The translations under genes and the position numbers were made by a program. A stretch of DNA of 64,000 nt, from contig PLWV01000017.1 of NCBI GenBank assembly GCA_003153155.1, forward strand, positions 161,932 to 225,931. The letters are read 5' to 3'. This DNA is from Gallionella sp. Its GTDB lineage: Bacteria > Pseudomonadota > Gammaproteobacteria > Burkholderiales > Gallionellaceae. Of this stretch, positions 5,408 to 48,241 are shown one piece after another; within the stretch, counting starts at the first letter, position 1; every line of letters begins with the position of its first letter. The notes under the pieces are model-generated. The model did no database searches, was not told the origin of the DNA, and was given only the letters and a program-made list of their open reading frames with translations.

Positions 5408-5546
5408 GGGTGCCCGGTCATAACCAGTCACTTGGCTGTTGTTCTTTGACAGCCTAGTGGAATGGCTATAACCAATGACTTGGCAGCTTGCTGCCTTAGT
5501 CAGATGGCTAGTTGCTTCAACAGTGGTTCCATCAAAAGTTTTTCGG
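5408..5546 (+). repeat. 25-bp module hosting two nested TAACC elements
   Basis: Module left half GGGTGCCCGGTCA (5408-5420) and right half AAAGTTTTTCGG (5535-5546) are split by TAACC element 1 (5421-5468 plus 5523-5534, together 60 bp). Element 1 is itself interrupted after GGCTA by element 2 (5469-5522, 54 bp). Removing element 2 restores the same 60-bp unit seen uninterrupted at 47683-47742. Arms of element 2, TGACTTGGCAGC and GCTGCCTTAGTCA, differ from those of element 1 but pair equally well. Confidence 0.85.
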
Positions 5547-5553
5547 ACAAGTT

Positions 5554-6945
5554 TCAACTGCTTTTTTTAAAATGATTTGGATTCAAAAGCACAATCTGAA
5601 TATCCATGACATTTGTGCCTGTTGATCCTGCTTTTAAATGACTGTGTGCTCCTGTCGCGGCATCGAACTGCTGAAAGAATGTGTAAGAGTCGTTGTTATC
5701 AAGATGGCTGATTGGGTCTATTCCCAGACTTCGTGCCCATGATGTTGTTCTGCCATCAACCATCGCGCCTGCGGCATCGGTTGGGCCATCTGTGCCATCA
5801 GTACCTGCGGATAGCAGCGTCACACCCTGACACCCCTCGATTTCCAACGCAAAGGCCAGGGCGAACTCCTGATTCCTGCCGCCCTTTCCGGTCCCGCGTA
5901 CGGTGACCGTGGTCTCGCCACCGCAGAGCAGGCAACGCCGCTCATTTGGTTTCATCACGGCCAGTTCGGCGCGTGCGGCTTGTGCCAGGAAACGGGCTGC
6001 CTCGCGTGCCTCGCCTTGGAGCGTATCGGAAATCATTCTCGTGACGAACCCAAGCTGCGCTGATTTCTCCTGAGCTGCGGCCATTGCCTGGTGGATGCTG
6101 GCGATGATGATGTTGCGCGTTTTATCCAGGCGGGGATTATTTTCCTTCACGGTTTCCGCTACCCGTCCAGCGATACCACGTTGCAAATAGTCCACTACAC
6201 GCGGAGGAAGTTCTTCCTGCAGTCCAAATTTCACAATCACTGCCCAGGCATCAGCAAAGGTCGAATTGTCTTGCGCCGTCGGCCCCGAAGCGATCACATC
6301 CAGAGGATCGCCGATGACATCGGAGAGAATCAGCGTTACCACCTGCGCTGGATAAGCTGCCTGCGCCAATCTGCCACCCTTCACCATTGAGAGATGTTTG
6401 CGCACTGCGTTCAATTCGGCTATGGATGCGCCCGCATTCAGCAACAAACGGGTCGCTTCCTGTTTGTCTTGTAGTGTTATCCCTGGCAGCGTTACCCCTG
6501 CGACGGGCGCAACCAGCAGCGCAGATGCGCCGCCAGAGAGCAGGCAAATGAGCAGCGTTTTTTCAGTGGCTGCGTGCGCCATTTCCAGAACACGCACGGT
6601 ACCCGCCACGCCGGCTTCGCCGGGAACAGGATGGGAGGATTCTACCTGTTCGATGATGGCCAATGGCGCTATGTGTCCATCCTTGACGACGATCAATCCT
6701 GCGTCGATTTTGCTACCCAGCAGGGATTCGATTGCCAATGCCATGCGTGCCGTGGCTTTGCCCGCGCCGACTACGATGATGCGGTCGAATGCTGCAAGAT
6801 CGTACTTCGCGCCAGCGATACGCAATTGATCGCCCTCGACCTTGGCCGCCTTGAGCACGGCGTTGTATGGATCAACGGCCGCCAGCGCGGCGTTAAAAAT
6901 ATCCAGCAGATTTTGGCTATCCGCTAGCTCTTCAGTGTCGGTCAT
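5554..6945 (-). CDS. Glycerate 2-kinase (MOFRL family)
   Basis: 463 residues matching the DUF4147/MOFRL glycerate-kinase family (also called TtuD or GckA, and often misnamed hydroxypyruvate reductase). The N-terminal domain has VVGAGKATARMA near residue 60 and LLSGGASALL near 135. The C-terminal MOFRL domain carries CLLCGGETTVTVRGTGKGGRNQE and SAGTDGTDGPTDAAG. It phosphorylates D-glycerate to 2-phosphoglycerate in glyoxylate or tartronate-semialdehyde metabolism. The downstream neighbour alaS is separated by a repeat-filled gap; the gene appears to be a single transcription unit. Confidence 0.9.
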   Translation of the reverse strand: MTDTEELADSQNLLDIFNAALAAVDPYNAVLKAAKVEGDQLRIAGAKYDLAAFDRIIVVGAGKATARMALAIESLLGSKIDAGLIVVKDGHIAPLAIIEQVESSHPVPGEAGVAGTVRVLEMAHAATEKTLLICLLSGGASALLVAPVAGVTLPGITLQDKQEATRLLLNAGASIAELNAVRKHLSMVKGGRLAQAAYPAQVVTLILSDVIGDPLDVIASGPTAQDNSTFADAWAVIVKFGLQEELPPRVVDYLQRGIAGRVAETVKENNPRLDKTRNIIIASIHQAMAAAQEKSAQLGFVTRMISDTLQGEAREAARFLAQAARAELAVMKPNERRCLLCGGETTVTVRGTGKGGRNQEFALAFALEIEGCQGVTLLSAGTDGTDGPTDAAGAMVDGRTTSWARSLGIDPISHLDNNDSYTFFQQFDAATGAHSHLKAGSTGTNVMDIQIVLLNPNHFKKSS

Positions 6946-6974
6946 TTCGTAAATAATCGCGTGGTGTTGTAGTT

Positions 6975-7085
6975 GTAGGTTGGGTAGGGCGGAAGCCCCG
7001 CAGGGGCGTTCCGCCGCAATTCAATGTGCTGTTGCATTCGGCGGAACGAAATCATCAGGCGGAACCGCAAGCGTTCCGTCCTACG
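6975..7085. repeat. Compound inverted repeat downstream of a frameshifted gene
   Basis: Starts GTAGGTTGGGTAGGGCGGAA and ends GCGTTCCGTCCTAC, which pair as an outer inverted repeat. An inner hairpin GCGGAAGCCCC/GGGGCGTTCCGC occurs near 6989-7013. The stop codon of the minus-strand frameshifted gene (TAG at 7081-7083) lies inside the element, so its C-terminus may have been set by the insertion. Confidence 0.7.
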
Positions 7086-7445
7086 CGGGCTTCACCGCTT
7101 CGCTCATGTTCTGAAGCAACTTCCCTGAGTGGCTGACGTTGGCTTTCGCGCGTTTGAGTCTCCAACGAAAATAGTCCTGCAAGAATCCAAGGAGAAACTG
7201 AACTAGTAGGTACGCTGTCGAAAGTGCGAGCATCCCATTAATGAGATCTGGTGAGTTTGTGGGTAGATCGATCGCCAACCCCGGAATCTGCCGAATCTGT
7301 AGTCCGTACGTAGCGATCACAAGAAGAATTGACAAGAAAACAAACAGTGTCGTCTTGGTCTTGAGTGTTGTTCCTGACAGAACGTCTTCAAGAATCGCCT
7401 ATCGTATTCGGCTTTGTAGTCAGTGGGATCGATGATTATTGTCAT
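7081..7445 (-). pseudogene. Frameshifted small membrane protein gene
   Basis: An 84-codon frame ending at 7081 contains two hydrophobic stretches (SILLVIATYG and LALSTAYLLVQFLLGFL). Upstream on the same strand an ATG at 7445 opens a second frame (MTIIIDPTDYKAEYDRRF) that ends within ~40 codons. The two frames join naturally near base 7385, where the downstream frame continues LEDVLSGTTLKTKTTLFVF. A single 1-bp indel would fuse them into a ~121-residue protein. Function unknown. It could be a sequencing error, a real pseudogene or, less likely, programmed frameshifting. Confidence 0.55.
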
Positions 7446-7515
7446 GTTGATTGTGGCGCCTAACGTAATTTGAGCGACATAGAGTTCGTCAAGTTATGCA
7501 ATATATCAGGCATCG

Positions 7516-7995
7516 TCAACCCTCCGTTCCCGCCGCTCGCAACACTTGAAAAATCACGTCAAAACCAAAACCTCGCGATTGCAGAAAGCGAACTTGCTTC
7601 GCCTTTTCTTTTTCGTCATGCGGTGCGATACCAAACTTTGTTTGCCATACGCTACGCGCCGCTTCCAGTTCGCTTGCTTTTAATTCCGGCAACGCTGCGC
7701 TGATCAATTCTTCCGCGATGCCTTTCTGGCGCAACTCGTGTGTAATGCGTTGGGTGCCGAAACGGCTACGCTTGGCGTGTACCAATTGCGTGGCAGCGCG
7801 AGCATCGGACAGCCAACCGCGCGCGACAAAGTCATCCAAGAGCGCATCCAGATTTACCGGAGACACCTGCTCGAAATCTTCGTCGGCTTGCACATGCGGC
7901 AACAACTTGCCGCGCAACTCGGCACGGCTGTATTCACGCCGGGCCAGGTATTGCAAAGCTCGAGCGCGTAAACTGACCTCAGGCTTTTTCCTCAC
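7516..7995 (-). CDS. recX: Regulatory protein RecX
   Basis: 159 residues with the RecX signature: SLRARALQYLARREYSRAELRGKL at the N-terminus, then three-helix repeats with QRITHELRQKGI and QVRFLQSRGFGFDVIFQVL. RecX binds RecA filaments and inhibits or remodels them. It lies directly downstream of recA on the same strand. The start is a GTG at 7995 with no clear ribosome-binding site, because the sequence immediately upstream is repeat DNA (7998-8083). Translation or expression of recX may therefore differ from relatives where recA and recX are tightly spaced. Confidence 0.93.
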   Translation of the reverse strand: MRKKPEVSLRARALQYLARREYSRAELRGKLLPHVQADEDFEQVSPVNLDALLDDFVARGWLSDARAATQLVHAKRSRFGTQRITHELRQKGIAEELISAALPELKASELEAARSVWQTKFGIAPHDEKEKAKQVRFLQSRGFGFDVIFQVLRAAGTEG

Positions 7996-7997
7996 CC

Positions 7998-8075
7998 GGG
8001 TGCCCGGCCATAACCAGCCACTTGGCTGTTGTCTTTATGACAGCTTAGTGGAATGGCTAGTAGTTCCATTAAAAG

Positions 8076-8083
<8 letters not shown>
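7998..8083 (+). repeat. 25-bp module with inserted TAACC element between recA and recX
   Basis: Module halves GGGTGCCCGGCCA (7998-8010) and AAAGTTATTCGG (8072-8083) surround a 61-bp TAACC element (8011-8071). The element fills nearly the whole recA-recX gap. The recA stop codon (8076-8078) lies inside the right half-module, so the last RecA codons are repeat-derived. Confidence 0.85.
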
Positions 8084-9146
<1,063 letters not shown>

Positions 9147-9188
9147 TTCGATCCCCTTTCAATAGTGATGCCGGATTGTGGCACATCA

Positions 9189-9204
9189 ATTCGTATTTGT
9201 ACAG
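9189..9204 (-). promoter_or_regulatory. Possible degenerate LexA (SOS) box upstream of recA
   Basis: The minus strand reads CTGTACAAATACGAAT, 43 bp upstream of recA. It matches the CTGT half and the AT-rich spacer of the proteobacterial SOS box but lacks the closing CAG. Position is right; the match is incomplete. Confidence 0.3.
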
Positions 9205-9280
9205 AACGTTCGTTCTCTTGTTGTTTTTAACGGGCATGGCTTATATGCCGCCCCTGATGATGAAACCCACTATGCCCGTT

Positions 9281-9345
9281 TCCCTCTCCCCTGCCCTCTC
9301 CCGCAAGCGGGCGAGGGGGACAGAGACTCGCTGCGCGAGTTTCAC
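9281..9345. repeat. C-rich palindrome between cinA and recA
   Basis: CCCTCTCCCGC and GCGGGCGAGGGG form a short stem near 9294-9318, followed by ACAGAGACTCGCTGCGCGAG. The same composite (palindrome plus a SLREF-encoding tail on one frame) recurs in frame inside fadE at 49374-49436. It ends at the cinA stop region. Confidence 0.75.
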
Positions 9346-9346
9346 G

Positions 9347-9838
9347 TTAAACTGTTTCGCTCGATTGATTCAGCAGGTCTATTAGTCCCTGCAAGGCGAT
9401 ATGCACCGCCAAAGCGCGCACTTCGGCACGGTTGCCTCCCAGTTGATGCCGTTGCGCGTGAGTCTCGCCGTGTTTTATACCCCAGGCGAACCACACCGTA
9501 CCCACCGGCTTGTCCGCTGTGCCGCCATCCGGTCCGGCGATGCCGCTGACCGCCAATGCGACTTGTGCCGCGCTGTTGGCTAATGCGCCCGCCACCATCT
9601 CGCGCACCGTCATCTCGGACACTGCGCCGTGTTGCTTGAGCGTCGTCTCACGCACGCCCAGCATCTGTTGCTTGGCCAAATTGGAGTAGGTAATGAAACC
9701 GCGCTCGAACCAGGTCGAGCTGCCTGCCACCTCGGTGATCGCCTGCGCAACTCCGCCGCCGGTACAAGATTCCGCCGTAGCCAGCATCAAGCCGTGCGAT
9801 TTAAGTGCGCCACCGACCTGCGTGGCCAAAACATCCAT
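9347..9838 (-). CDS. pncC: Nicotinamide-nucleotide amidase (CinA C-terminal type)
   Basis: 163 residues corresponding only to the CinA C-terminal domain: LATAESCTGGGVAQAITEVAGSS at the N-terminus, then YSNLAKQQMLGV, and ALAVSGIAGPDGGTADKPVGTVWFAW. The family deamidates NMN to nicotinic acid mononucleotide in pyridine-nucleotide recycling. The ATG at 9838 shares one base with the metZ stop (TGATG), indicating translational coupling; a TTG one codon upstream is less likely. It sits between metZ and recA on the same strand. Confidence 0.92.
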   Translation of the reverse strand: MDVLATQVGGALKSHGLMLATAESCTGGGVAQAITEVAGSSTWFERGFITYSNLAKQQMLGVRETTLKQHGAVSEMTVREMVAGALANSAAQVALAVSGIAGPDGGTADKPVGTVWFAWGIKHGETHAQRHQLGGNRAEVRALAVHIALQGLIDLLNQSSETV

Positions 9839-11025
9839 CAAAGATTCAGCCCACGTAAGTCAGCTTGAATATCGCAGACTGCTTCCAAGCCGACCGCGAT
9901 GCGTATCAATCCATCCGTAATGCCTGCCGCCGCGCGCGCCTCAGGTGTGATGCGCGCATGGGTAGTGCTGGCCGGATGAGTGATGGTGGTTTTGGTGTCG
10001 CCCAGATTGGCGGTGATGGACAACAGCTTGGTGTTGTCAATCACGCGCCATGCCACTGCCTTGCCACCCTTCACCTCGAACGACACGATACCGCCGCCGG
10101 CTTTCTGTTGGCGCAGCGCCAGTTCGTGTTGAGGATGCGACGGCAAGCCCGGGTAGAAAACCCGTGCCACATTCGGTTGCGTCTCCAACCATCGCGCGAG
10201 TTCCAGCGCATTGGCGCAGTGAGCGTCCATGCGAATTTTCAGCGTCTCCATGCCTTTCAGGAACACCCAGGCATTGAACGGGCTCATGGTCGGGCCTGCG
10301 GTACGCAAAAAGCCGTACACGCTTTCCATATTCTTCTTGCTGCCCAGCACCGCACCGCCCAGCACGCGCCCCTGCCCGTCGATGTATTTGGTCGCGGAAT
10401 GGATCACGATGTCCGCGCCCAATTCCAGCGGGCGTTGCAGGATGGGCGTGCAGAAGCAGTTGTCCACCGCCAGCAGCGCGCCGCATTTCTTAGCCACCGC
10501 AGAAATTGCCGCGATGTCGGAAATCTCAGTGAGCGGATTGGACGGCGTTTCGAGAAAGAACAACCTGGTGTTGGGACGCACCGCCGCCTGCCATTCCGCG
10601 ACATCGGTGGCGGAAACGTAAGTCGTCTCGACGCCAAATTTTTTGATGATGTTGTTGAACAAATTCACCGTCGCGCCGAACAGGCTGCGCGAAGCGACGA
10701 TGTGATCGCCTGCCTTGAGCACGCCCATCACACACGCCAGAATTGCCGACATGCCGGAGGCAGTGGCAACACATTGCTCCGCGCCTTCCATGGCGGCGAG
10801 CCGTTCTTCGAACATGGTGACGGTCGGATTGGTAAAGCGCGAATAGATGTTGCCCGGCTGTTCGCCGATGAAACGCGCGGCGGCTTGCGCGGAATTCTCG
10901 AACACGAAGCTGGAAGTCAGGAACAACGCTTCACTGTGTTCGCCAAACTGGCTGCGCACCGTGCCGGCATGCACCGCCAAAGTTTCCGGTTGATAAGTAT
11001 TAGGCTGATTTGTATTATTAGGCAT
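9838..11025 (-). CDS. metZ: O-succinylhomoserine sulfhydrylase
   Basis: 395 residues, Cys/Met-metabolism PLP family. The cofactor region includes ASGMSAILA near 90, VDNCFCTPILQRPLELGAD and the Schiff-base lysine in HSATKYIDGQGR near 205. MetZ makes homocysteine directly from O-succinylhomoserine and sulfide. I prefer the ATG at 11025 over 11031 because AGGGG lies about 6 bases before it. A SAM-II riboswitch and an intrinsic terminator lie immediately upstream, consistent with feedback by S-adenosylmethionine. MetZ versus other paralogs is supported by the GQGR(V)LGGA stretch and by context. Confidence 0.93.
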   Translation of the reverse strand: MPNNTNQPNTYQPETLAVHAGTVRSQFGEHSEALFLTSSFVFENSAQAAARFIGEQPGNIYSRFTNPTVTMFEERLAAMEGAEQCVATASGMSAILACVMGVLKAGDHIVASRSLFGATVNLFNNIIKKFGVETTYVSATDVAEWQAAVRPNTRLFFLETPSNPLTEISDIAAISAVAKKCGALLAVDNCFCTPILQRPLELGADIVIHSATKYIDGQGRVLGGAVLGSKKNMESVYGFLRTAGPTMSPFNAWVFLKGMETLKIRMDAHCANALELARWLETQPNVARVFYPGLPSHPQHELALRQQKAGGGIVSFEVKGGKAVAWRVIDNTKLLSITANLGDTKTTITHPASTTHARITPEARAAAGITDGLIRIAVGLEAVCDIQADLRGLNL

Positions 11026-11042
11026 GTGCATCCCCTGAAAGC

Positions 11043-11077
11043 AAAAAACCCGGAAAGCTTAGCGCTAAACCGGGTTT
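11043..11077 (-). terminator. Intrinsic terminator between SAM-II riboswitch and metZ
   Basis: On the minus strand AAACCCGG (11077-11070) pairs with CCGGGTTT (11053-11046), followed by a run of Ts to 11043. It ends 12-18 bases before the metZ start and is the likely expression platform of the riboswitch. Confidence 0.85.
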
Positions 11078-11136
11078 CCCGCGCTTTAGCTGTATTTATT
11101 ATGCGCCCGCAAGCTGTTCCTCAAATCGGCGCAGGC
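11078..11136 (-). ncRNA. SAM-II riboswitch upstream of metZ
   Basis: The minus strand carries the compact SAM-II layout: P1 5' strand TGCGCC followed by GATTTGAGGAAC, then CTTGCGGGCGCATAATAAAT closing P1 and CAGCTAAAGCG at the 3' end forming the pseudoknot. The spacing and the conserved GATTT, TTGC, ATAAAT and GCTAAA blocks match the metX-type aptamer I know from alphaproteobacteria and marine metagenomes. Its position before metZ and a terminator supports repression when S-adenosylmethionine is abundant. Confidence 0.88.
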
Positions 11137-11252
11137 AAAAGGTAACACCTGCCGCAGCGAAATGTCAAATTCTCTCCTGCTCTTCAGCAACTGGCCTGTT
11201 GGCTTTTTCGGCACCTCATGAAATTTCCAAAGCTGCGTGCCCCCGAAAATAT

Positions 11253-13286: not shown

Positions 13287-13544
13287 GAGCGCCTCTAAAA
13301 ATTCAGAGTTCGCCCAAATGCCCCACAAGGGGACGCCGATCCGCTACGGGCAAAAGCAGCCCGTGCGGAGTCGTCAGCAAGGCGTGGAAAAAATTTCGCA
13401 GCGCCGCATATGGTTGATATGTCAGCAAGAAATTTTTTCCGCAACGCAGCATAACCAGCCACTTGGTTGCCGTTTTTTGGCGACTTAGTGGAATGGCAAG
13501 TAGTTCCATCAGTTGGGATGAAGTATGGATTTTTAGAGGTTCCC
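13287..13544 (-). mobile_element. MITE-like element (copy 1) between dedD and cvpA
   Basis: Terminal inverted repeats GAGCGCCTCTAAAAAT at 13287 and ATTTTTAGAGGTTCCC ending 13544. Flanked by the 4-bp direct repeat TCAT (13283-13286 and 13545-13548). Internally similar to the inverted copy at 14222-14364, but carrying a 57-bp extra block (13321-13377, with hairpin CCGCTACGGGC/GCCCGTGCGG) and a 60-bp TAACC element (13452-13511). It encodes no protein. The terminal sequence looks IS5-like from memory; this is unverified. Confidence 0.88.
13452..13511 (+). repeat. TAACC element inserted in MITE copy 1
   Basis: 60-bp unit with ends TAACCAGCC and GTTCCATCA and arms CCACTTGGTTGCC and GGCGACTTAGTGG. 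The sister MITE copy reads GCAGCA then GTTGGG without interruption, so the element's exact boundaries are given by the empty site. Confidence 0.9.
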
Positions 13545-21333: not shown

Positions 21334-21368
21334 AAAAGAAAACGGCAGCCCAATCCTGAACTGCCGTT
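21334..21368 (-). terminator. Intrinsic terminator downstream of fimV
   Basis: On the minus strand AACGGCAG (21368-21361) pairs with CTGCCGTT (21348-21341), followed by TTCTTTT. The stem directly abuts the first TAACC element. Confidence 0.8.
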
Positions 21369-21656
21369 AACCAGCGGCTTATGTCACCGTTTTTTGGTGA
21401 CTTAGCCGATTGGCTATGCAAAGCTAACCAATGACTTGGTTGGCGTTAACCAGCGGCTTATGTCACCGTCTTTTGGTGACTTAGCCGAATGGCTATGCAA
21501 CGCGTTTGCCAACTTATAACCAACCACTTAGCAACCGTCTTTGGGTTGCTTATAACCAGCCACTTGGTTGCCGTCTTTTGGCGACCTAGTGGAATGGCTA
21601 GAAGTTTCATCAGTGGGATGGCTAGTTGTTCCACCAGTCAGATGGCTATACAAAGC
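21368..21656 (+). repeat. Nested cluster of five TAACC elements
   Basis: Fills the gap between fimV and the EcfT-like gene. Element i is 21368-21424 (57 bp). Element A (21425-21446, 21504-21516, 21637-21656) contains element iii (21447-21503, 57 bp) in its loop and element B (21517-21552 plus 21613-21636, 60 bp) in its right arm after CTTA. Element B in turn contains element C (21553-21612, 60 bp), again after CTTA. Removing inner copies gives intact outer copies of 60 and 55 bp. Confidence 0.9.
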
Positions 21657-21662: not shown

Positions 21663-24626
21663 TTAACCGAGTTGATCGAAAAGGGTTTGCGCGGCTTTGC
21701 GTTGCTCGGCATCACCTTCGCGCAGGACTTCCTCAAGGATTTCACGTGCACCGCTGGTATCGCCCATTTCGTGATAGGCCTTGGCCAAATCGAGTTTCGT
21801 TGCGACGTCTTGCCAGTGATCGTCTTTGTTTCCTGCTGCCGATCCGCTTGGTGCTGCGGCATCATCAAAGTTCAAACTGATACCCGCCAAACCGACTGCA
21901 GCAGGTTGTGCCACAGACGCAGATTTCCCGGCTATGTTTTCAACCGGGAAATCCAGCGTGAACGCCATTCCGCCGCCAGCTTCTGCGGGCTTGCTTATTT
22001 CCGGCTGGGCCGTTGCCGGCTTGAATGAATGGCTGCCCGTCACATCGAAAACAAAATCATCCGAAATTGGCGATGCTGCTTCTGTTGGCCCGCCAGCCGC
22101 ACCCATCGAAGGATGGGTAGAGGTGACATCAAAATCCATCGCGCCCCCTTGCCCGGTAGCCCCATGCATCGAAGTATTGGCGGATGTAACGTCAAAATCC
22201 ATTTTCGCGACTTGCGCGGCAAGCCTGCCATCAGATGACATAACCGAAGTTATTTCTGCGCCGCTCAAAAAGTCCTGTTCCGGCGATGGCTCCTCTTTGG
22301 CTGCTGACGCGCCCGAATCAAAATCAAAATCGAGAGCCGATGCTTGTGCCTTCGGAACATTTTTTGGTTCCGGAGTTACACTGAAAGCCGTCATTTGCAT
22401 GGTCGCGCTACCCGCATTCTCTATAGTTCCGGCACCGCCATACATCGGGTTGTTCGGTTCCAGCTTGCGGCCCATAGCAATGGCTTGTTGCCATGCATCT
22501 TCATCACCGGAATCCTGCAACTGGCGCGCAATTGTCGAGAAGGAGTTTGTATCCTTTCGGTTAGCATAAATTTCCAACAACTTGAGATGGATCTGGTGAT
22601 TGTTCGGGGTGTTTTGCAGAGCTTCTTTGAGTATTTCTTCAGCTTGGACATCACGGCCAAAGTTAAGGAACAGATCTGCCTCACTGATCGGATCAACGTT
22701 ATCCGATTGGGAAGCTGCCATAGCCTGGGCAGCAGCCGCACTGGTGAAATCGCCAGTCTCAGGAGAAGGAAAAACTGGCGCGGCCATGCGGCCCGTTATT
22801 TCACCGACATCCGCTGATGGTTGATCCTTGTCCTCATCAGAAGAATTTTTTTTTCTCCGGTACACCATAAAACCCAGACCACCCAAAGCAAGCAAGGCAG
22901 CGGCACCACCAGCCAGATAAAGCGGCTCGTCCAGAACCTGATCCAGCAGGGACGGTTCCGGCTTGGCCTGTTTTGGCATGGGCTGGACAACCGGTGCCGG
23001 CTTGACCGCGCTCGTTGCCGTCACTTCACTGACAGCAGATTTAGCCGCTGCAGTGACTGGAGGTTGTGCCAGTGCAGCTTGCTCAGTTTTCAATTGGGCG
23101 AGGCGCTGCATATCCTGGAGATTCTTTTCGAGCAGTGCGGTGCGCTCCTGCCCTTCCTTCAAGGCCTTGTTCTTGGCAATTGCATCTTCCTGCGCAGCAT
23201 TTTTCTTGTCCTGTTCGGACATGGACTTGCCACCGGCACCTGTCCCGACCTGGTCTCCAGGAGCTTCGCCCTTGGATAGTTTCAGCACCTCCTTGGCGGA
23301 CTCTTTTGCCACCGGAGCCATATCGGCGATCGAACTGCTGATCTTGCCGGTAGCAACTTGCTGCGCGGCTTGCGATTGATTGCTGACTGCGGCTGCACTG
23401 GCCAGTTTTTGCCGGTAAGCATTCCAATCGGCTGCCTGGGCATGAATCTCCTTTATCGCATCAGGCAGTGACACGCTCATCAATTCTTGCTGGCTGGGCA
23501 AATGCAGAATTTTGCCGGCCCTGATGCGGTTCATGTTGCGGCCGTCGAACTGGTCGGCATTGATGCGATACATCGCGACCAGCATACGTTCCAGACTCAT
23601 ATCAGCCGGTTTGTGTTGTTCTGCGATTTTGTACATCGTGTCGCCGCGTTGAACCGTAAGCCACTCTTTAATCGCTGGCACCGCTGCAGCTTCCGGAGCA
23701 GCTTGTTCCACAGGCTTGGCAGCGGTTTCTGCCGGAGCGGCTTGTTCCTCAGGCTTGGCAGCGGTTTCCGCCGGTGCGGCTGGCACTGCCGATGCAGCGG
23801 CTTGCTCCGCTGGCGTGACTGCGGCTACTGGAGCGGCTTGCTCCACAGGCGTGGCTGTGGTTTCTTCCGGCACGGCTGGCACGGCCGACACGGCTGCTTC
23901 GGGTGCGGCGGCTTGCACTTCTGGTGCGACGGCCTGCACTTCCGCTTGAGCAGGTTGTTCCGGCACATAACCGGGGGGATCCAGCAGGAAAGTATATTCG
24001 CGGGACAGTTTGCCGGAAGACCAGGTCACCTCAACCAGCAGACTTACAAAAGGATCGTTGACTGGTTGCGCGCTGCTCGCCTTGATGTACGGTTGACCGT
24101 CCGCGCGACTCTCAATCTGAAATTTGAACTTGTTGCCATAAGGATATTCCAGCCCGGCACTCTTATAGGCTTCGGGTGAGGCAAGACGGGCGACCAGACT
24201 GTCTTTCTCAGCCTTGCTGATTGCCACTAATTCTATGTCGGCCTTAAGCGGTTGCCCCAAAGCAGAAGCCACATTTATTCCGCCCAACCCTACGGCGGAA
24301 ACAGTTGTTGTGGACAGCATCAAAGCGGCAACAACGCCGAGCAGTTTTAGTATAACCAGCGACTTGGCTGTCGTTAACCAGCGACTTGCCAGCGTTTTTG
24401 CTGGCTTAGTCGATTGGCTATGCAAAGCTAACCAGCGGCTTATGTCACCGCCTTTAGGTGACTTAGCCGAATGGCTATGCAAAGCTAACCAGCGGCTTAT
24501 GTCACCGTCTTTCGGGTGCCAGGCCAAAAGCTTTTCGGATGGTGACTTAGCCGAATGGCTATGCAAAGCCTTTTGACAGCCTAGTCGAATGGCTAGTCGC
24601 TTTAGTTTTAGTAGTGATTTTCGCAC
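21663..24626 (-). CDS. fimV: FimV-family peptidoglycan-binding protein with interrupted signal peptide
   Basis: 987 residues. After the N-terminus come the FimV N-domain (VGLGGINVASALGQPLKADIEL), a Pro/Ala/Glu-rich repeat region (about 260-350), a LysM-like domain (TVQRGDTMYKIAEQHK), a coiled-coil stretch, one transmembrane helix (LAGGAAALLALGGLGFMVY near 600) and a C-terminal TPR-like FimV domain (DLAKAYHEMGDTSGAREILEEVL). FimV organises polar assemblies and type IV pilus function. The GTG start has AGGGTG about 7 bases upstream. Residues ~9-95 are encoded by nested TAACC elements and split the signal peptide. Collapsing the 10-bp flanking repeat removes exactly 87 codons. Confidence 0.93.
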   Translation of the reverse strand: MRKSLLKLKRLAIRLGCQKALHSHSAKSPSEKLLAWHPKDGDISRWLALHSHSAKSPKGGDISRWLALHSQSTKPAKTLASRWLTTAKSLVILKLLGVVAALMLSTTTVSAVGLGGINVASALGQPLKADIELVAISKAEKDSLVARLASPEAYKSAGLEYPYGNKFKFQIESRADGQPYIKASSAQPVNDPFVSLLVEVTWSSGKLSREYTFLLDPPGYVPEQPAQAEVQAVAPEVQAAAPEAAVSAVPAVPEETTATPVEQAAPVAAVTPAEQAAASAVPAAPAETAAKPEEQAAPAETAAKPVEQAAPEAAAVPAIKEWLTVQRGDTMYKIAEQHKPADMSLERMLVAMYRINADQFDGRNMNRIRAGKILHLPSQQELMSVSLPDAIKEIHAQAADWNAYRQKLASAAAVSNQSQAAQQVATGKISSSIADMAPVAKESAKEVLKLSKGEAPGDQVGTGAGGKSMSEQDKKNAAQEDAIAKNKALKEGQERTALLEKNLQDMQRLAQLKTEQAALAQPPVTAAAKSAVSEVTATSAVKPAPVVQPMPKQAKPEPSLLDQVLDEPLYLAGGAAALLALGGLGFMVYRRKKNSSDEDKDQPSADVGEITGRMAAPVFPSPETGDFTSAAAAQAMAASQSDNVDPISEADLFLNFGRDVQAEEILKEALQNTPNNHQIHLKLLEIYANRKDTNSFSTIARQLQDSGDEDAWQQAIAMGRKLEPNNPMYGGAGTIENAGSATMQMTAFSVTPEPKNVPKAQASALDFDFDSGASAAKEEPSPEQDFLSGAEITSVMSSDGRLAAQVAKMDFDVTSANTSMHGATGQGGAMDFDVTSTHPSMGAAGGPTEAASPISDDFVFDVTGSHSFKPATAQPEISKPAEAGGGMAFTLDFPVENIAGKSASVAQPAAVGLAGISLNFDDAAAPSGSAAGNKDDHWQDVATKLDLAKAYHEMGDTSGAREILEEVLREGDAEQRKAAQTLFDQLG
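24353..24603 (+). repeat. Nested TAACC cluster inside the fimV signal-peptide region
   Basis: Outer element D (24353-24374 plus 24570-24603) holds E (24375-24428, 54 bp), F (24429-24485, 57 bp) and G (24486-24512 plus 24540-24569, 57 bp) in its loop. G's loop holds an unoccupied 25-bp module within a 27-bp insert (24513-24539). All insert lengths are multiples of three. The cluster is flanked by AGTTTTAGTA at 24343-24352 and 24604-24613. Confidence 0.92.
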
Positions 24627-41901: not shown

Positions 41902-42184
41902 GCGCCGCCTCCTTCTCAATGAAAGGACGCAACTCTGGACGTAACGCCTTCTCCGTCACCAGATCAACAGGCACCCCAAGCAAATCTTCCAGGTAAAACT
42001 GCACACCGAAGTAGCGCGCTGACGTCGCCGGGCCATCGAAGGCAACCAGCACATCCACATCGCTGCCCTCTTTCGCGGTATCCCGCACGACCGAGCCGAA
42101 CAAGGCCAAGCGCGCGACGCCAAAGCGCTGCGCCAAGACCTGTTTGTGCTCGGACAGCAACTGCAAAGTTTGTGAACGGTTCAT
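41894..42184 (-). CDS. mntA: MntA-like nucleotidyltransferase antitoxin
   Basis: 96 residues. The minimal nucleotidyltransferase signature GSX10DXD is present as LFGSVVRDTAKEGSDVDVLV near residues 29-46. MntA-type antitoxins transfer AMP to HepT. It overlaps hepT by 8 bp, so the two are co-translated. Confidence 0.9.
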   Translation of the reverse strand: MNRSQTLQLLSEHKQVLAQRFGVARLALFGSVVRDTAKEGSDVDVLVAFDGPATSARYFGVQFYLEDLLGVPVDLVTEKALRPELRPFIEKEAAHV

Positions 42185-42282
42185 TTCAATATTCCTTTAT
42201 AGCTTCCATGATGCCACAGCAAACGGCGGCGACTGCTGAATAATCGACTCCGATGCCTATTCATCGCCCGACAAATAAATTC

Positions 42283-43254
42283 TCAAGATGTTTTTTCAAT
42301 TAACCAATCAATAAGCCCATTGCGCACAACCTGCACAGCAACCTCTCTCCCATCCCATATTGTGATATTTCTATTTTTGCGGCTAGAAACCTTGTGCTTA
42401 CCTGTGTGATACACATAAAACATTTTTCCAAAATTTTTTGACTGACTATTACTGATATAACTTTCCAATTCATTAGCATTTGTTTCACTCTTAACCTGAA
42501 CGAATGCCCTTTCGCCCGTCAAAGGCTGCCAAAGAGAGAAGTCAATTGTTTTCTGAACACCGCCTGTTGCACTTATTCGTTTCCATCCAGATTGAGCAAA
42601 AATAAGTTCAATTAAGGCCTCAAAATCTTTCCATGTAAGCAACTTTAATAGTTCTTCCATGCACTCCACAAGTGAATCTCTTGCCCCCTTAGCCCTCTCA
42701 ACCTCATTGGGAAGCTTGCCGTTGATTCTATCGATAGCGTATCTGGCAGAATCCGCACTAAGACCACATATAGTGCCTTGGTAACTTGCAGTCCTAGTTA
42801 AATTTCCACCCAGGAAATCCATTGCCAACGATTTATCATGCACGTCCGTATTGCGCCAAGGAATGGACATATTTTTAAAACTCCCCTCTCCATCAGGGTG
42901 AGCCTTTGGCTGCTCCCCATTGGAAAATCCATACCACATCGCGTTCTTTGAGAAGGTAATCCAAAGTACTGATCCATCATCTTCAAAAAAAGATTTCGTT
43001 TGGTTAACGTAACTAGTCACCGTTTGCGAGGCACTCTTTTTTTCTGACCAATACTCTTTCAATTTATCCCACTGGCGTTTCGACGCGTAACTCAAAACTT
43101 TTGCTTCCCCAGTAGAAAACCCCAGCCTGATAATTCCATCATTAAAACACTCACCCTCCCAACGCCCTCCTTCGCCGAGCTTGATATAGCAAATATCACT
43201 CACATCTCTACCACAACAAATAGGCAATCCATCCATTTCAGAAATCCCATCCAA
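42283..43254 (-). CDS. Mrr-like restriction endonuclease with unassigned N-terminal domain
   Basis: 323 residues, visibly AT-richer than the surrounding fad genes. The C-terminal ~130 residues look like an Mrr-type PD-(D/E)xK nuclease: LLTWKDFEALIELIFAQSGW then TIDFSLWQPLTGERAFVQVKSET (D...QVK catalytic core). The N-terminal ~190 residues start ICYIKLGEGGRWEGECFNDG-IIRLGF and contain several Trp-rich strands; I do not recognise this domain by name, though similar N-termini occur in endonuclease-annotated proteins. It likely cuts modified or foreign DNA (inference). It is transcribed with mntA-hepT. Confidence 0.72.
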   Translation of the reverse strand: MDGISEMDGLPICCGRDVSDICYIKLGEGGRWEGECFNDGIIRLGFSTGEAKVLSYASKRQWDKLKEYWSEKKSASQTVTSYVNQTKSFFEDDGSVLWITFSKNAMWYGFSNGEQPKAHPDGEGSFKNMSIPWRNTDVHDKSLAMDFLGGNLTRTASYQGTICGLSADSARYAIDRINGKLPNEVERAKGARDSLVECMEELLKLLTWKDFEALIELIFAQSGWKRISATGGVQKTIDFSLWQPLTGERAFVQVKSETNANELESYISNSQSKNFGKMFYVYHTGKHKVSSRKNRNITIWDGREVAVQVVRNGLIDWLIEKTS

Positions 43255-43263
43255 ACTTTTTCA

Positions 43264-45771
43264 TTAGTTGCGCAACGGCTTGCCGTTCTTCAGCATGTAC
43301 TCGATCCGCTCCTGCGTCTTGTCCGTCGCCAGCAGCTCCATGAAGTGTTTGCGCTCCAGATCCAGCAGCCATTGTTCATCCACCAGGCTGCCCGCTTCAA
43401 CATCGCCGCCGCATAGCGTATCAGCCACTGCGCAGCCGACTTTGTAATCGTGTGCGGAGATGAAGCCGCCTTCCAGCATGTTGATCATCGCGGCTTGCAG
43501 CGTGGCAGTGCCGGTTCGTCCTGCCACCGGAATCTGCGTGGGTGGCAACGGCGGGCGGTAGTCGGTGGCGGTCAGCGCGCGCAGTTCGTTCTTGGCGACG
43601 TGCAACAACTCGAAGTGGTTCATCACGATGCGGTCACCCGCGCGCAAGTAGCCCATTTCTCTCGCCAGTTCGGCACTCTTGGCGACTTCGCCCATGGCGA
43701 TGTTCTGGAAATAGCGTTTCAAGAATGGAAACAAGTCACCGCCCTTGGCCTCCTGAGCGGCGCGAAGCGCAGCTTCCTTGCTGCCGCCACCGGCGGGCAA
43801 TATGCCCACCCCGACTTCGACCAGCCCGATATAACTCTCCAGCGTGGCCACCACGCGCGCCGAGTGCATGATGATCTCGCAACCGCCGCCGAGTGCCAGG
43901 CCGTCCACCGCCGACACCACCGGCACTTGCGCGTACTTGATGCGCTGGGTCACTTGCTGGAATTTGGCGACCACCGCTTCGACTTGCGGCACGTTTCCGG
44001 TCGCGGCATTCAGCACCTGACTCAAACCACCGCCGCCCGCCACGGTATATTTAACGCGGTTCGCCGCCTGCTTCAATTTGTCGAACATCCCTGCATCTTC
44101 ACTGGCCGGTTGCACACCCTGCATCAGTTGCAACAGATTCGCGCCGGCGGAAAACGGCGGCTCGGTCTGCCAGATGATCAGCCCGCGCCAGTTCGCCTCG
44201 GCCTCATCCACTGCGCGCAAGATGCCGTCCAGCACCTCGTCGCCGATGATGTGCATCTTGCTCTTGAAACTGAGGATGGCGATGTCGTCGTTCGGGTGCC
44301 CGTCCATCAGTTTTTCGGAGCCGTGCCACATCCGCACACTTTCATTCTCGAATATCGTTTCGCCATAGTGTGCTTCTTCGCCCAGCAGACGTTCGGGGAA
44401 TTCCTGACGGCGATACACCGGCAACACAGAGCGCGGCTGGTCAATTCCCAGTGCCGGTGAATACGAGCCCTGCGCGCTGTGCACGCCGGTACGCGCGGGA
44501 TCCTGCGCCCAATGCGGCAACTCAACATCAGACATGGTCTTACCAGCAGCGCGCTCTTCGTTGATCCAGCCCAGCACTTTTTGCCAACCGACCGCTTGCC
44601 AGATTTCAAACGGCCCGCTGCCCCAGCCGAAACCCCAGCGCACCGCGAAATCCAGATCACGCGCGTTGTCGGCGATGCGCGGCAAATGAACGCCGCAGTA
44701 ATGGAACACATCGCGGAACACGCGCCACACAAATTGGGCTTGCGGATGCGCGCTGTTGCGCAAGCCTTCCAACTTTGCGGCCCAATCGCGTTGGCGCAGC
44801 AACTCCTTCACCGTGTCATCCACTTTCCCTGCCGAGAGGCGGTATTTCTTGGTATGCACAACCAGCACGTGAATATCCTTGCCGACCTTCTGATACACGC
44901 CGCGCCTGGATTTTTGTCCCAGCGCGCCCTGCTCGATCAAACCGTTGAGCCAGTCCGGCACGGCGAAATAAGAGTGCCACGGATCGTCGTGCAAATTGTC
45001 GCGCATGGTGTTGACCACATGCGCAAAGGTATCCAGCCCGACCACATCCAGGGTGCGAAACGTTGCACTCTTGGGGCGGCCCAAATAACTTCCGGTCAGC
45101 GCGTCCACGGTATCGAAGCCCAAGCCCAGCCGCTCCGCATGATGCAGCGTGGCCAGCAGGGAAAATACGCCGATGCGGTTGGCGATGAAGTTGGGCGTGT
45201 CTTTGGCACGCACCACACCTTTGCCCAAGCCGGACACCAGAAATGTTTCGAGCTGGTCGAGCAACAGCGCATCGGTTTTCTCGCAAGCGATCAACTCGAC
45301 CAGATGCATATAACGCGGCGGATTGAAAAAATGGATGCCGCAGAAGCGGTGCCGCAAATTTTCCGGAAAGGCTTCGGCGAGCTTGTTGATGGACAGCCCG
45401 GAGGTGTTGCTGGCGAAGATGGTTCGCTCGCCCAGGTAAGGTGCGACCTTGTGGTACAACTCGGATTTCCAATCCATGCGTTCGGCGATCGCCTCGATGA
45501 CCAGATCGCAATCGCGTAGCTGTTCGAGGTGCTGACCGTAATTCGCCGCCGCAATGAAATTGAGCTTGGCCGGGCTCGCCAGAGGACTCGGCTCAAGCTT
45601 CTTCAGCCCGTCCAGTGCCTTGTTGACGATGCCATTAGGATCACCCTCGCGGGCGGGTAAGTCGAACAGGATGGTCGGCACATTGGCATTCACCAGATGC
45701 GCGGCGATCTGTGCACCCATCACGCCTGCGCCGAGCACCGCGACTTTGCGGATATGGAAATTTTCATTCAT
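43264..45771 (-). CDS. Fatty-acid oxidation bifunctional protein (FadB-like)
   Basis: 835 residues from MNENFHIRKVAVLGAGVMGAQIAAHL (NAD site of 3-hydroxyacyl-CoA dehydrogenase), preceded by GGGAGAG; the frame to 45798 is rejected. The first ~420 residues form the dehydrogenase; the enoyl-CoA hydratase/crotonase domain follows (PPFSAGANLLQ and DGLALGGGCEIIMHSARV). This domain order, dehydrogenase before hydratase, is opposite to E. coli FadB and matches the FadJ/HbdA-like single-gene type in betaproteobacteria. Residues near 485 (SEKLMDGHPND) are encoded by a copy of the 25-bp repeat module. Confidence 0.95.
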   Translation of the reverse strand: MNENFHIRKVAVLGAGVMGAQIAAHLVNANVPTILFDLPAREGDPNGIVNKALDGLKKLEPSPLASPAKLNFIAAANYGQHLEQLRDCDLVIEAIAERMDWKSELYHKVAPYLGERTIFASNTSGLSINKLAEAFPENLRHRFCGIHFFNPPRYMHLVELIACEKTDALLLDQLETFLVSGLGKGVVRAKDTPNFIANRIGVFSLLATLHHAERLGLGFDTVDALTGSYLGRPKSATFRTLDVVGLDTFAHVVNTMRDNLHDDPWHSYFAVPDWLNGLIEQGALGQKSRRGVYQKVGKDIHVLVVHTKKYRLSAGKVDDTVKELLRQRDWAAKLEGLRNSAHPQAQFVWRVFRDVFHYCGVHLPRIADNARDLDFAVRWGFGWGSGPFEIWQAVGWQKVLGWINEERAAGKTMSDVELPHWAQDPARTGVHSAQGSYSPALGIDQPRSVLPVYRRQEFPERLLGEEAHYGETIFENESVRMWHGSEKLMDGHPNDDIAILSFKSKMHIIGDEVLDGILRAVDEAEANWRGLIIWQTEPPFSAGANLLQLMQGVQPASEDAGMFDKLKQAANRVKYTVAGGGGLSQVLNAATGNVPQVEAVVAKFQQVTQRIKYAQVPVVSAVDGLALGGGCEIIMHSARVVATLESYIGLVEVGVGILPAGGGSKEAALRAAQEAKGGDLFPFLKRYFQNIAMGEVAKSAELAREMGYLRAGDRIVMNHFELLHVAKNELRALTATDYRPPLPPTQIPVAGRTGTATLQAAMINMLEGGFISAHDYKVGCAVADTLCGGDVEAGSLVDEQWLLDLERKHFMELLATDKTQERIEYMLKNGKPLRN
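44294..44318 (+). repeat. 25-bp module, empty copy, in frame in fadB
   Basis: Reads GGGTGCCCGTCCA then TCAGTTTTTCGG, differing at three positions from the copies split by TAACC elements. It encodes EKLMDGHP on the fadB strand, between the conserved WHG and DDIAILSFKSK blocks. Confidence 0.65.
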
Positions 45772-45866
45772 CTGTTTCTCTCCCGTTAGGTGTTTCACCC
45801 CTTCCCACTATGAGGAGAAAGGCTGGGATGGGGGTGAAAACACCGCTTAGGCTGGCTTAAAATTCT

Positions 45867-45905
45867 ACCCCCACCCTAACCCTCCCCCTGCAAGGGGGAG
45901 GGGAT
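45867..45905. repeat. C-rich palindrome upstream of fadB
   Basis: CCACCCTAACCCTCCCCCTG then CAAGGGGGAGGGG pair around TGCA. Intergenic member of the same C-rich palindrome type as in folC. Confidence 0.7.
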
Positions 45906-45923
45906 GTTGTTGTAACTTTTTTT

Positions 45924-46325
45924 CTAATCCACTGGCGGCACTACTCGCGGCTTGCGATCTTCACCCACCGCGACATAAGTCAGCGTCGCCTCGGTCACCT
46001 TGACGCAAACCGGCTTGGCAGGATCGCGCTGCGCATAGACCTCGACCTCGACGGTGATCGACGTCGTTCCCACCTTCACGATCCTGGTGTAGAAACTCAC
46101 CACGTCGCCGACGAAGATCGGCTGCTTGAATACGAAGGAATTCACTGCCACTGTTGCAACACGGCCCTTGGCGCGATGCAATGCCGGGATGCTGCCGGCG
46201 ATGTCCACCTGCCCCATCAGCCAGCCACCGAAGATGTCGCCGGTATAATTGGCATCTGATGGCATCGCCGCCACACGGATGGTCGGTTCGCGCTGAGGCA
46301 AGGTGGTGTGCAGGTGGTCATCCAA
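45924..46325 (-). CDS. Acyl-CoA thioesterase (YciA-like hotdog)
   Basis: 133 residues, hotdog fold. Active-site region is NYTGDIFGGWLMGQVDIAGSIPALHRA with the conserved Asn/Asp helix, followed by ATVAVNSFVFKQPIFVGDVVSFYTRIVKVG. It hydrolyses acyl-CoAs, probably buffering the CoA pool within the fad cluster. It lies between fadB and the acyl-CoA ligase, 3 bp from the latter. Confidence 0.92.
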   Translation of the reverse strand: MDDHLHTTLPQREPTIRVAAMPSDANYTGDIFGGWLMGQVDIAGSIPALHRAKGRVATVAVNSFVFKQPIFVGDVVSFYTRIVKVGTTSITVEVEVYAQRDPAKPVCVKVTEATLTYVAVGEDRKPRVVPPVD

Positions 46326-46327
46326 GA

Positions 46328-48241
46328 TTAATGTCCTTCATAAAGTTGTTTTATTTGATCGGCGAATTTCGCCGCCACTTCGGCGCGCTTAATTTTCAAA
46401 GTAGGCGTGAGCAGGTCGTTTTCTATGCTCCACGGCTCCCGCAACAGCAACACGCGATGCACGTTGGCATAGCCGGGGAAGCCGCTCAGATTTCGCGCGA
46501 TACGCCGCAACACCTTGGCTCGCACATTGCTGTCCGTCAGAGATTCCGGCATGTCTGGACGCACGCCGACTTTCGCGGCAATGCTCAACCACACCTCGGG
46601 ATTAAGCACGGCCAACGCGACCAGATACGGATGCGCCTCGCCGAATATCATCACCTGATCGATCAGCGGATCATGCAGAATCGCGATTTCCATATCGCCC
46701 GGCGGAATCTTCTCACCGTTCGACATGACGATGATCTCCTTGATGCGTCCGGTAATGTAGATGTGGCCGGTGCCGCTGATGCGCGCGACGTCGCCAGTAT
46801 TCAGCCAACCGTCCGCATCGATCATCGCCTTGGTCGCTTCAGGGTTGTTCCAGTAGCCCAGCATCACGTTCGGCCCTTTCACCAACAGCACGTTCTGCTC
46901 CCCGATGCGCACCTGAACATCGCGTATCGGTTGGCCGACACTGTCCGGAAAATTATTTTCCAGATGATTGCCGGTAATCACCGGGCTGGTTTCAGTCAGC
47001 CCATAGCCCTGCACAACCGGCAATCCCAAACCAACGAACACCCGTGAAATGTCGGGCGCGAGTGCGGCCCCACCGCTGATCGCGACGCGCATGCGACCGC
47101 CCAACTTATCGAGAATTTTTTTCGCAACCAGTTTTTGCAATATCGGCCAGAGCAAAAAAGAGACCTTCCATGGACCGCGACCTTGCTCATGTTCAAAGCG
47201 CGCCCAGCCGGTTTCCACCGCCAGGTGAAACAGCATGCGTTTGAGCGGCGAACCCTCTTCGAGCTTGATTTTAATTGCGCCATAAACACGCTCGTAAATG
47301 CGCGGAACGGAAATCAGCATGGTCGGGCGGATGCTTTGCAGATCCTCCGACAACAGCGGGATGGAACGTGCGAAGGCCACGGTCGCTCCCGTCATCACGG
47401 CCAGGTAATAGCCCAGAGTGCGCTCGAAGGTATGCGACAGCGGAAGGAAGGACAAGAGCAAATCATCGCCGCGCACGGTAAAGGTATCCAGACAAGCATG
47501 GGCATTGGTGAGCATATTGGCGTGGCTCAACATCACGCCCTTTGGCTTGCCGGTGGTGCCGGAGGTATAGATGATGCTGGCCAGTTCATTCATCTGGCAG
47601 GGCGGCGCGGGCCGCAATTGCGCGGCAGGCGGCAAGAACTCCGCCATGGATTTCAGGCGCGGCTCATCCGGGTGCCCGGCCATAACCAGCCGCTTGGTTG
47701 CCGTTGTTTGGCTACCTAGCGGAATGGCTAGTGGTTCCATCAAAAGTTTTTCGGCACCATCTCTCATATCGTCGATACTCACGAAACGCACCACACCGCC
47801 AAGCTGATCGCGCACCGTGCTCAGAGCTTGCCATTGTTCGGCATTTTCAAACAGCAACACCTTCACCTCGGCATCGTTAATGATGTAAGCGATGTTGTCC
47901 GGCCGGTCCACGGTATACAGCGGCACGACCACCAGGCCCAGCGACATCGCCGCCTGATCGAACATCATCCACTGCGGGCAGTTGCGCAACATGATGGCGA
48001 CGCGGTCACCGCGCTGCAACCTTAACTCTGCCAACGCCGCCTGCCAGCGCGCCACTTCGCCGAGCATATCCCGCCAAGTGATGTCGCGCCAAACCGGTGC
48101 CGGGCCAAAAGTTGTTCGGTCATTCTGCTGAAAATAGCGATAGGCGACTTTATCCGGTGTCCGGCGCGCGCGCTCCACGAACAGCCCGTGCAAGGTGCCC
48201 GCCTGTTCCGGCGAAATCACATCGTTTTGTTGTGCCTGCAT
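46328..48241 (-). CDS. Long-chain acyl-CoA synthetase with in-frame repeat insertions
   Basis: 637 residues, FAA1/long-chain type. AMP-binding P-loop SIIYTSGTTGKPKGVMLSH near 235, VQGYGLTETSPVI near 425, LNTGDVARIS and the C-terminal KIKRAEVAAKF. It activates fatty acids to acyl-CoA. The linker near residues 165-200 (EKLLMEPLAIPLGSQTTATK...) is encoded by a 25-bp module split by a 60-bp TAACC element. A second, empty module lies near residue 45 (RTTFGPAP). Both keep the frame, so function is probably preserved. Confidence 0.93.
   Translation of the reverse strand: MQAQQNDVISPEQAGTLHGLFVERARRTPDKVAYRYFQQNDRTTFGPAPVWRDITWRDMLGEVARWQAALAELRLQRGDRVAIMLRNCPQWMMFDQAAMSLGLVVVPLYTVDRPDNIAYIINDAEVKVLLFENAEQWQALSTVRDQLGGVVRFVSIDDMRDGAEKLLMEPLAIPLGSQTTATKRLVMAGHPDEPRLKSMAEFLPPAAQLRPAPPCQMNELASIIYTSGTTGKPKGVMLSHANMLTNAHACLDTFTVRGDDLLLSFLPLSHTFERTLGYYLAVMTGATVAFARSIPLLSEDLQSIRPTMLISVPRIYERVYGAIKIKLEEGSPLKRMLFHLAVETGWARFEHEQGRGPWKVSFLLWPILQKLVAKKILDKLGGRMRVAISGGAALAPDISRVFVGLGLPVVQGYGLTETSPVITGNHLENNFPDSVGQPIRDVQVRIGEQNVLLVKGPNVMLGYWNNPEATKAMIDADGWLNTGDVARISGTGHIYITGRIKEIIVMSNGEKIPPGDMEIAILHDPLIDQVMIFGEAHPYLVALAVLNPEVWLSIAAKVGVRPDMPESLTDSNVRAKVLRRIARNLSGFPGYANVHRVLLLREPWSIENDLLTPTLKIKRAEVAAKFADQIKQLYEGH
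47670..47754 (+). repeat. 25-bp module split by TAACC element, in frame in acyl-CoA ligase
   Basis: Module halves GGGTGCCCGGCCA (47670-47682) and AAAGTTTTTCGG (47743-47754) flank a clean 60-bp TAACC element (47683-47742) with arms CCGCTTGGTTGCC and GGCTACCTAGCGG. Confidence 0.92.
48096..48119 (+). repeat. Empty copy of the 25-bp module in acyl-CoA ligase
   Basis: GGTGCCGGGCCA then AAAGTTGTTCGG matches the module at 22 of 24 positions. It encodes RTTFGPAP at the N-terminal part of the ligase. Confidence 0.55.

Follow-up and report, generated by a model that had tools for sequence, protein, structure and literature searches.

How REP-like palindromes spread is poorly understood, according to part of PMC8266576. 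The described systems closest to the elements analysed here are the GTAG-tagged repetitive extragenic palindromes (REPs) and REPINs with their REP-associated tyrosine transposases (RAYTs, or TnpA-REP), as well as CGTC-tagged palindromic repeats, small derivatives of IS200/IS605, the Rickettsia palindromic elements and the attC sites of integrons. We analysed a stretch of 64,000 nucleotides from Gallionella sp. (assembly GCA_003153155.1, contig PLWV01000017.1, positions 161,932 to 225,931 of the forward strand; "the window" below), which contains a dispersed family of folded elements that begin with TAACC. These elements are real, mobile, covarying hairpins that nest within one another. They are best classed as a new REP-like, non-autonomous hairpin family that lacks features by which GTAG REPs, CGTC repeats, attC sites and IS200/IS605 derivatives are defined. 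Members insert precisely, and they enter one another because an element offers targets in its loop, its arm and its foot. We propose that they would be mobilised in trans by a Y1/HUH enzyme of the RAYT type; taken as a whole, we regard this explanation as roughly an even call.

Comparison with described systems

Like GTAG REPs and REPINs, the elements are short imperfect palindromes with unpaired stem bases, reach high copy number and carry no gene of their own. Their load follows RAYT-size genes, with exceptions, and the CA ends common among them recall the CA cutting described for one TnpA-REP (part of PMC8266576). However, the element hairpin starts at base 1, so that its 5' side is target DNA without a 5' GTAG, and a GTNG stands 3' of the foot. 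The stem is also longer than in GTAG REPs, the elements nest within themselves, and they are not regularly found beside RAYT genes. As for the CGTC-tagged repeats, no dedicated transposase is known and copies occur inside genes and palindromes (part of PMC3733652), but our elements carry no CGTC tag and end in TAACC and in CA or GC.

Small derivatives of IS200/IS605 share with the elements a hairpin followed by a 3' run to the cut site, and insertion 3' of a short target without duplication. In the elements, however, a single hairpin serves both ends from the first base, in place of left and right subterminal hairpins with 5' guides, and none of the three Y1 matches in the window's genome is an IS200-class TnpA. 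The Rickettsia palindromic elements are alike in making in-frame insertions in protein genes; sequence and host differ, and the likeness is one of description rather than of sequence comparison (the name itself is given in part of PMC3733652). Integron attC sites are also folded single strands with a variable terminal stem and unpaired bases, but the elements have neither RYYYAAC/GTTRRRY boxes nor a G^TT junction, and show no association with integrons once RAYTs are considered. No Rfam 15 family matched within the window at the gathering score, and the literature searched, where most subscription papers fell outside coverage, gives the family no name, in keeping with an earlier note on this DNA that did not recognise it as a known repeat.

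Unit structure and covariation

Units are mostly 54 to 61 nucleotides long. TAACC and GGCTA together form the foot; above it come an internal loop, a stem and a variable inner stem with its loop, and a 3' tail completes the unit. The window holds 14 TAACCANNNRCTT half-sites, all on the + strand; 100 shuffles give a mean of 0.09 and a largest count of 1. The genome to which the window belongs (2.75 Mb in 30 contigs) has 326 half-sites, 174 forward and 152 reverse, versus 5 forward and 9 reverse for the reversed pattern, and at least 172 model matches at E<=0.1, with 150 of 1637 candidates scored. The earlier note had counted at least 14 copies at six loci. There are indeed 14 five-prime halves at six loci, but several of its "copies" are halves of interrupted outer copies, the nesting having been missed; further copies, for which it had suggested a search, number in the hundreds.

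In an alignment of 12 un-nested window copies, 97.4% of the cells at paired positions are paired, and 8 of 16 pairs show double changes. Among 133 distinct copies, mostly from the same genome, the figure is 98.2%, with a covariation score of 0.422 vs 0.174 when shuffled, in an alignment that was fitted to the structure and so favours that score. Double changes reach 13 of 16 pairs in a set of 37 copies, of which 26 come from other genomes and 11 from the window. In other families both sides of the outer stem are altered, from UAACC/GGCUA to CAAGC/GCUUG or UAAGC/GCUUA. The tail ending ATCA is kept at eight such loci (L199, L203, L204, L206, L209, L211, L212 and L243) and not at four (L200, L202, L208 and L213). 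The compensatory pairing of the arms that the earlier note described is borne out by these alignments, and its suggestion of selection or copying on a folded strand gains support from the covariation together with the mobility described below.

Mobility and insertion sites

Filled and unfilled forms of the same site occur in related genomes. Between recA and recX, two relatives (L009, L010) have no insertion, another (L015) has a REP-like repeat alone, and the window has the same repeat with an element inside it. In a gene for an AMP-binding enzyme, the window carries 87 extra nucleotides in frame (a REP-like repeat plus a 60-nucleotide element) compared with 8 of 20 loci that have a 62-nucleotide spacing; the remaining loci of the 20 differ in other ways. 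At L230 an element lies within a palindrome that is present and unfilled at L228 and L231. For 70 external sites with clean flanks, which also served for the folding comparison given below, the 14-mer obtained by joining the flanks was found uninterrupted in fetched DNA in 27 cases, vs 6.2% of 5000 control sites. The elements are mobile, and from the empty and filled orthologous sites and the uninterrupted 14-mers it follows that their ends are exact and that the target is not duplicated. The AMP-binding gene, recA-recX and the region upstream of alaS gave no sign of conserved placement.

A separate observation concerns AlaS, whose match is broken while the open frame continues with extra length in G015, G074 and G076 (near residue 276) and in G027, G030 and G072 (near residue 380). 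Four of these loci were tested and gave no match to the element model, and there is no gap between the aligned pieces.

Two tail classes and their targets

Copies that fit a strict pattern in 620 kb comprise 143 with a 12-nucleotide tail (type A) and 27 with an 8-nucleotide tail (type B), in agreement with the two tail types of the earlier note. The junction tables cover strict-pattern copies only: 195 of 272 half-sites at the outset, 6 of which fell into the class "other", then the 143 and 27 copies, and 142 type A copies for the information content of the tail. These two tail classes have different targets. Type A copies are preceded by TA (71), CA (48), GA (17), GG (4), CG (2) or AA (1), and all 143 have CA at the right end by construction, since the pattern selects CA. 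Type B copies end in GC in 25 of 27 cases and are preceded by GT (22), GC (4) or GA (1).

The same division appears where one element has entered another. Nested type A copies lie in the foot (36), the arm (20) or, once, the loop, while all 13 nested type B copies lie in the loop and none in foot or arm (Fisher p=3e-13, nested copies only). A further 86 type A and 14 type B copies are external or in another position. One core sequence was found with both tails, and core and tail are not wholly independent, because the subfamilies to which most type B cores belong were not found with tail A. Tail A starts with GTNG, in which position 3 is hardly constrained: the information content is 1.6 and 1.3 bits at position 2, 0.34 and 0.26 at position 3, and 2.0 and 1.8 at position 4.

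Copies in the window

The clusters of the window are nests, in which copies have gone into the loop (of the copies at 21425 and 24353), the 3' arm (21425 and 21517; CTTA^G) or the foot (5421; GGCTA^G). The copies are as follows.

5421..5468, + strand: outer copy, hairpin part; tail GTGGTTCCATCA at 5523-5534; its host is a REP-like repeat (5407-5420 and 5535-5546)
5469..5522, + strand: type A copy in the foot of the 5421 copy (GGCTA^GTGG)
8011..8071, + strand: type A copy in the recX-recA interval, with a REP-like repeat as its host; in relatives the site is empty or holds only the repeat
13452..13511, + strand: type A copy with a GGCAA foot, inside another recurrent repeat (CGCAACGCAGCA^GTTGGGATG)
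21368..21424, + strand: type B copy with tail TGCAAAGC
21425..21656, + strand: outer copy in three pieces (21425-21446, 21504-21516 and 21637-21656), split in the loop and 3' arm, by eye
21447..21503, + strand: type B copy within the loop of the 21425 copy (CGT^GTTT)
21517..21636, + strand: type A copy in two pieces (21517-21552 and 21613-21636) that interrupts the 21425 copy in its 3' arm (CTTA^GTCAG), by eye
21553..21612, + strand: type A copy that interrupts the 21517 copy in its 3' arm (CTTA^GTGGG)
24353..24603, + strand: outer copy in two pieces (24353-24374, and 24570-24595 with an unclear tail); its loop holds three copies (CGT^CTTTT), by eye
24375..24428, + strand: type B copy
24429..24485, + strand: type B copy
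24486..24569, + strand: type B copy whose loop holds a REP-like repeat (24513-24538)
47683..47742, + strand: type A copy of 60 nucleotides, antisense and in frame in the gene for an AMP-binding enzyme, within a REP-like repeat (47669-47682 and 47743-47754)

The window also holds a second repeat, short and REP-like, of the CGGGTGCCCGGCCAAAAGTTTTTCGG type, at 5407-5420, 5535-5546, 24513-24538, 47669-47682 and 47743-47754. Copies of this repeat have themselves entered genes and element loops, and the hairpin elements often use it as a target. A facing pair of GTAG-type palindromes (GTAGGAGCGGGCCATGCCCGCGAA...) at 5354-5407 adjoins the 5421 nest. The same GTAG palindromes are enclosed by an inverted-repeat element elsewhere in the genome (L108, G000:C4:71300-73600), which lies within an element copy, at GGGTTA^GTCAG of its 3' arm. 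The N-terminus of the FimV-like open reading frame (ORF) at 21663-24626 (- strand) was carried through the 24353 nest by mechanical extension; the true start of the ORF may lie downstream of the nest, because FimV_N begins only at residue 112.

Distribution of the family

By AlaS, the closest relatives of the window's genome in the named collection are Candidatus Ferrigenium and metagenome-assembled genomes of Gallionella. In 36 other members of the genus, the number of half-sites per genome ranges from 1 to 99. Counting the window's genome, the family model is matched by 26 of 300 genomes of the order at E<=1e-4 and by 6 of 369 genomes of the class at E<=1e-6. A single 60-nucleotide query found no match in the plasmid collection, and three search patterns found 1, 12 and 0 stretches among viral contigs. 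One viral-collection contig (L249), on which phage-like genes can be read, has the same element insertion with the same flanks as a locus of the window's genome (L112, contig C6), and this common site may lie in a prophage. Two loci from other families of the class (L241, L242) hold single copies in the same arm of a GGGA^GAGGG-like palindrome, and this repeat possibly carried them.

Orientation relative to genes

Copies within one cluster share a strand, and only 2 of 154 clusters are mixed. The earlier note had reported a single orientation and taken it as a sign of a strand-specific mechanism. The report is accurate for the window, where all 14 half-sites are on the + strand and the chance of six out of six loci agreeing is about 0.03 (2 x 0.5^6), but it does not extend to the genome, with its 174 forward and 152 reverse half-sites, and the mechanistic reading of it fails there too. 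Clusters between co-directional genes (n=62) are oriented 33 with and 29 against the genes, and clusters compared with the main gene strand of their stretch divide into 69 and 77, so that neither comparison shows a bias; these counts use 146 of the 154 clusters and mechanical ORF calls. Within ORFs of at least 100 amino acids, 38 of 50 clusters are antisense, an excess that would be explained if copies in the sense direction introduce stop codons.

RAYT genes and element load

Candidate enzymes were sought among Y1 genes and the integron integrase (IntI). Two of the three Y1 matches in the window's genome, at C19:91125 and C9:168996, look RAYT-like and have adjoining GTAG palindromes. The third belongs to a class of 245 amino acids in which, by eye, 20 of 21 loci have flanking GGGGNNNA-like, GGGG-type inverted repeats, and which resembles the TIRYTs of PMC3733652 (described in part of that source). 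Twenty loci of this class gave one clear element match, 0.23 kb after the gene (L184). Near RAYT-size genes, with 2 kb fetched, five element matches fall in 4 of 29 loci, with about one locus expected by density (p 0.014 to 0.028). No full-length match was found at 30 further Y1 loci, which gave one partial match (E 0.014), and the flanks of IS200-class TnpA genes, inspected by eye for 7 of 9 loci, showed no resemblance to the element in any of the 7.

A mobiliser linked in cis was considered and rejected, since clustering of 514 neighbouring ORFs revealed no recurrent neighbour gene that is consistently linked. Of the groups present at three or more loci, one comprised 45 ORFs at 33 loci and another had 6 ORFs; we interpret both as repeat-derived peptide. 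Two further groups, without assigned identity, covered 3 loci each.

Across 37 genomes, element load rises with the number of Y1 genes (rho 0.36, and 0.64 in the 22 genomes that are at least 90% complete). Load also goes with the presence of a RAYT in those 22 genomes (p=0.0046, a post hoc value, as Y1 number and IntI were examined before RAYT). RAYTs were called by a rule on match length and E-value, which alone classed the second set of genomes; in the first set, 23 fetched frames from 16 genomes have the RAYT-type HLH motif, and G015 is positive by the rule without the motif. In 24 new genomes, with the rule fixed beforehand, 9 RAYT-positive genomes had an element excess of 56 to 209 and 7 RAYT-negative genomes one of -6 to 26 (p=0.00017), this headline test being restricted to genomes at least 90% complete. 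With the filter lifted, p=0.0038 for all 24 new genomes and 2e-5 for all 61. The new set was not wholly unseen, as the model matches of G061 and single loci of G062, G070, G072, G074 and G082 were known earlier; p=0.0004 when G061 is left out and 0.0025 when G072, G074 and G082 are also left out.

Phylogenetic generalised least squares (PGLS) on an AlaS tree of 38 genomes gave a RAYT effect with p=4.6e-5 at the fitted lambda and 1e-4 at lambda 1, and the new set alone gave 1.3e-5 and 0.0015; the tree is that of a single gene, with weak nodes and one partial sequence. An association of load does not in itself demonstrate that RAYTs act on the elements.

Proposed mechanism

The acting form would be the folded DNA strand that carries TAACC, and a Y1/HUH enzyme of the RAYT (TnpA-REP) type would be supplied in trans from a gene at another genomic position. 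This enzyme would cut after the target dinucleotide and after a like dinucleotide at the 3' end of the element, and then join the ends. A TnpA-REP from Marinomonas is reported to cut at CT or CA; T2 and G4 of GTAG determine the CA, and position 3 is free (part of PMC8266576). The IS200 mechanism is described in part of PMC6006769, with parts of PMC2817692 and PMC3733652 as further sources.

The start of the tail may provide a comparable guide. For CA ends this would be GTNG, with T2 pairing with A and G4 with C or T, and a G4 that also accepts T would fit the TA targets of tail A. For GC/GT ends it would be (A)TGC: if the reading of tail B begins one base upstream, as ATGC, it would specify G followed by C or T.

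A more specific version is that the family is a hairpin transposon with an exchangeable tail, in which the core would be recognised, the tail would both end the element and pick the target dinucleotide, and host RAYT-type enzymes acting in trans would give rise to lineages with different targets, the element's own loop, arm and foot included. We put this version forward tentatively, as a possibility that we consider less likely than not.

Evidence against the proposal and alternative explanations

Several observations weigh against mobilisation by RAYTs or against the guide code. The earlier note had named a RAYT or other HUH gene as the candidate mobiliser; the statistical association with load is strong, but elements do not regularly flank RAYT genes (4 of 29 RAYT-size loci), most RAYT genes inspected carry GTAG palindromes of their own, and the RAYTs of loaded genomes look diverse. 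One genome that is 99% complete (G061) has at least 13 model matches without any Y1 match, with a half-site count at background. Two others, each 83% complete, have an excess of 171 (G070) and 84 (G022) with no RAYT found, and G001 and G023 have a RAYT and no element excess. The RAYT effect does not reach significance when only IntI-negative genomes are compared (4 vs 11, p=0.21). In REPs the tetranucleotide is on the 5' side of the hairpin, but the GTNG is on its 3' side; 21 of 143 type A left dinucleotides start with G, which the proposed code disallows, and the GA targets (17 of 143) do not fit it. The indifference to gene direction noted above belongs here as well, as does the folding of the 70 joined flanks, which was no stronger than that of 3000 control sites and led us to reject targeting of hairpin loops. 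Finally, the RAYT link may be indirect, because only this family was counted and other repeats may follow RAYTs too.

Such an indirect link is central to the alternative that survives best, in which the folded element is moved by a dedicated enzyme, either lost or of another kind (a recombinase, a reverse-transcribing system or an HUH enzyme other than a RAYT), and RAYTs merely mark repeat-rich genomes. The three genomes with elements and no detected RAYT, the missing cis link and the RAYTs' own palindromes all fit this explanation. However, the RAYT association is strong, also under the rule fixed beforehand and after correction for the tree, and no recurrent neighbour gene offers itself as the enzyme. 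We consider a dedicated enzyme possible but on balance doubtful.

Passive spread, in which host REP-like palindromes move or convert and carry the element with them, would require no mobility of the element's own. It would account for the many copies at the same point of recurrent repeats and for composites that recur with the same inner copy. However, the same target holds different hairpins, one core occurs at different targets, nested copies lie at three defined positions that match the tail type, and an element fills a palindrome that relatives have unfilled; passive spread is thus unlikely.

A functional RNA under host selection, such as a terminator or attenuator, would likewise be structured and covarying. 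Against it stand the indifference to gene direction between genes, the antisense copy in frame within a gene, the nesting, the sites that are empty in relatives and the lack of an Rfam match in the window, and we consider this explanation highly improbable. We disfavour most of all, and give almost no weight to, movement of the elements as attC-like sites by the integron integrase: it is above the cut-off in 30 of 61 genus genomes including that of the window (G000:C8:2361-3302), and load is higher with IntI in both sets at 90% completeness or more (p=0.0018), but load did not differ in the first 37 genomes (p=0.29), IntI has no effect among RAYT-negative genomes (p=1.0) or beside RAYT in PGLS, the R-box pairs that a simple pattern finds near three integrases look different, and element junctions are not G^TT.

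Implications

For the proposal of mobilisation in trans by RAYT-type enzymes, the family offers exact ends, empty sites, nested layers that are ordered in time and a natural contrast between two tails. Across the genus, load spans from background to hundreds and tracks RAYT presence. Given these properties, both mobilisation in trans and guide-based targeting can be tested with short oligonucleotides.

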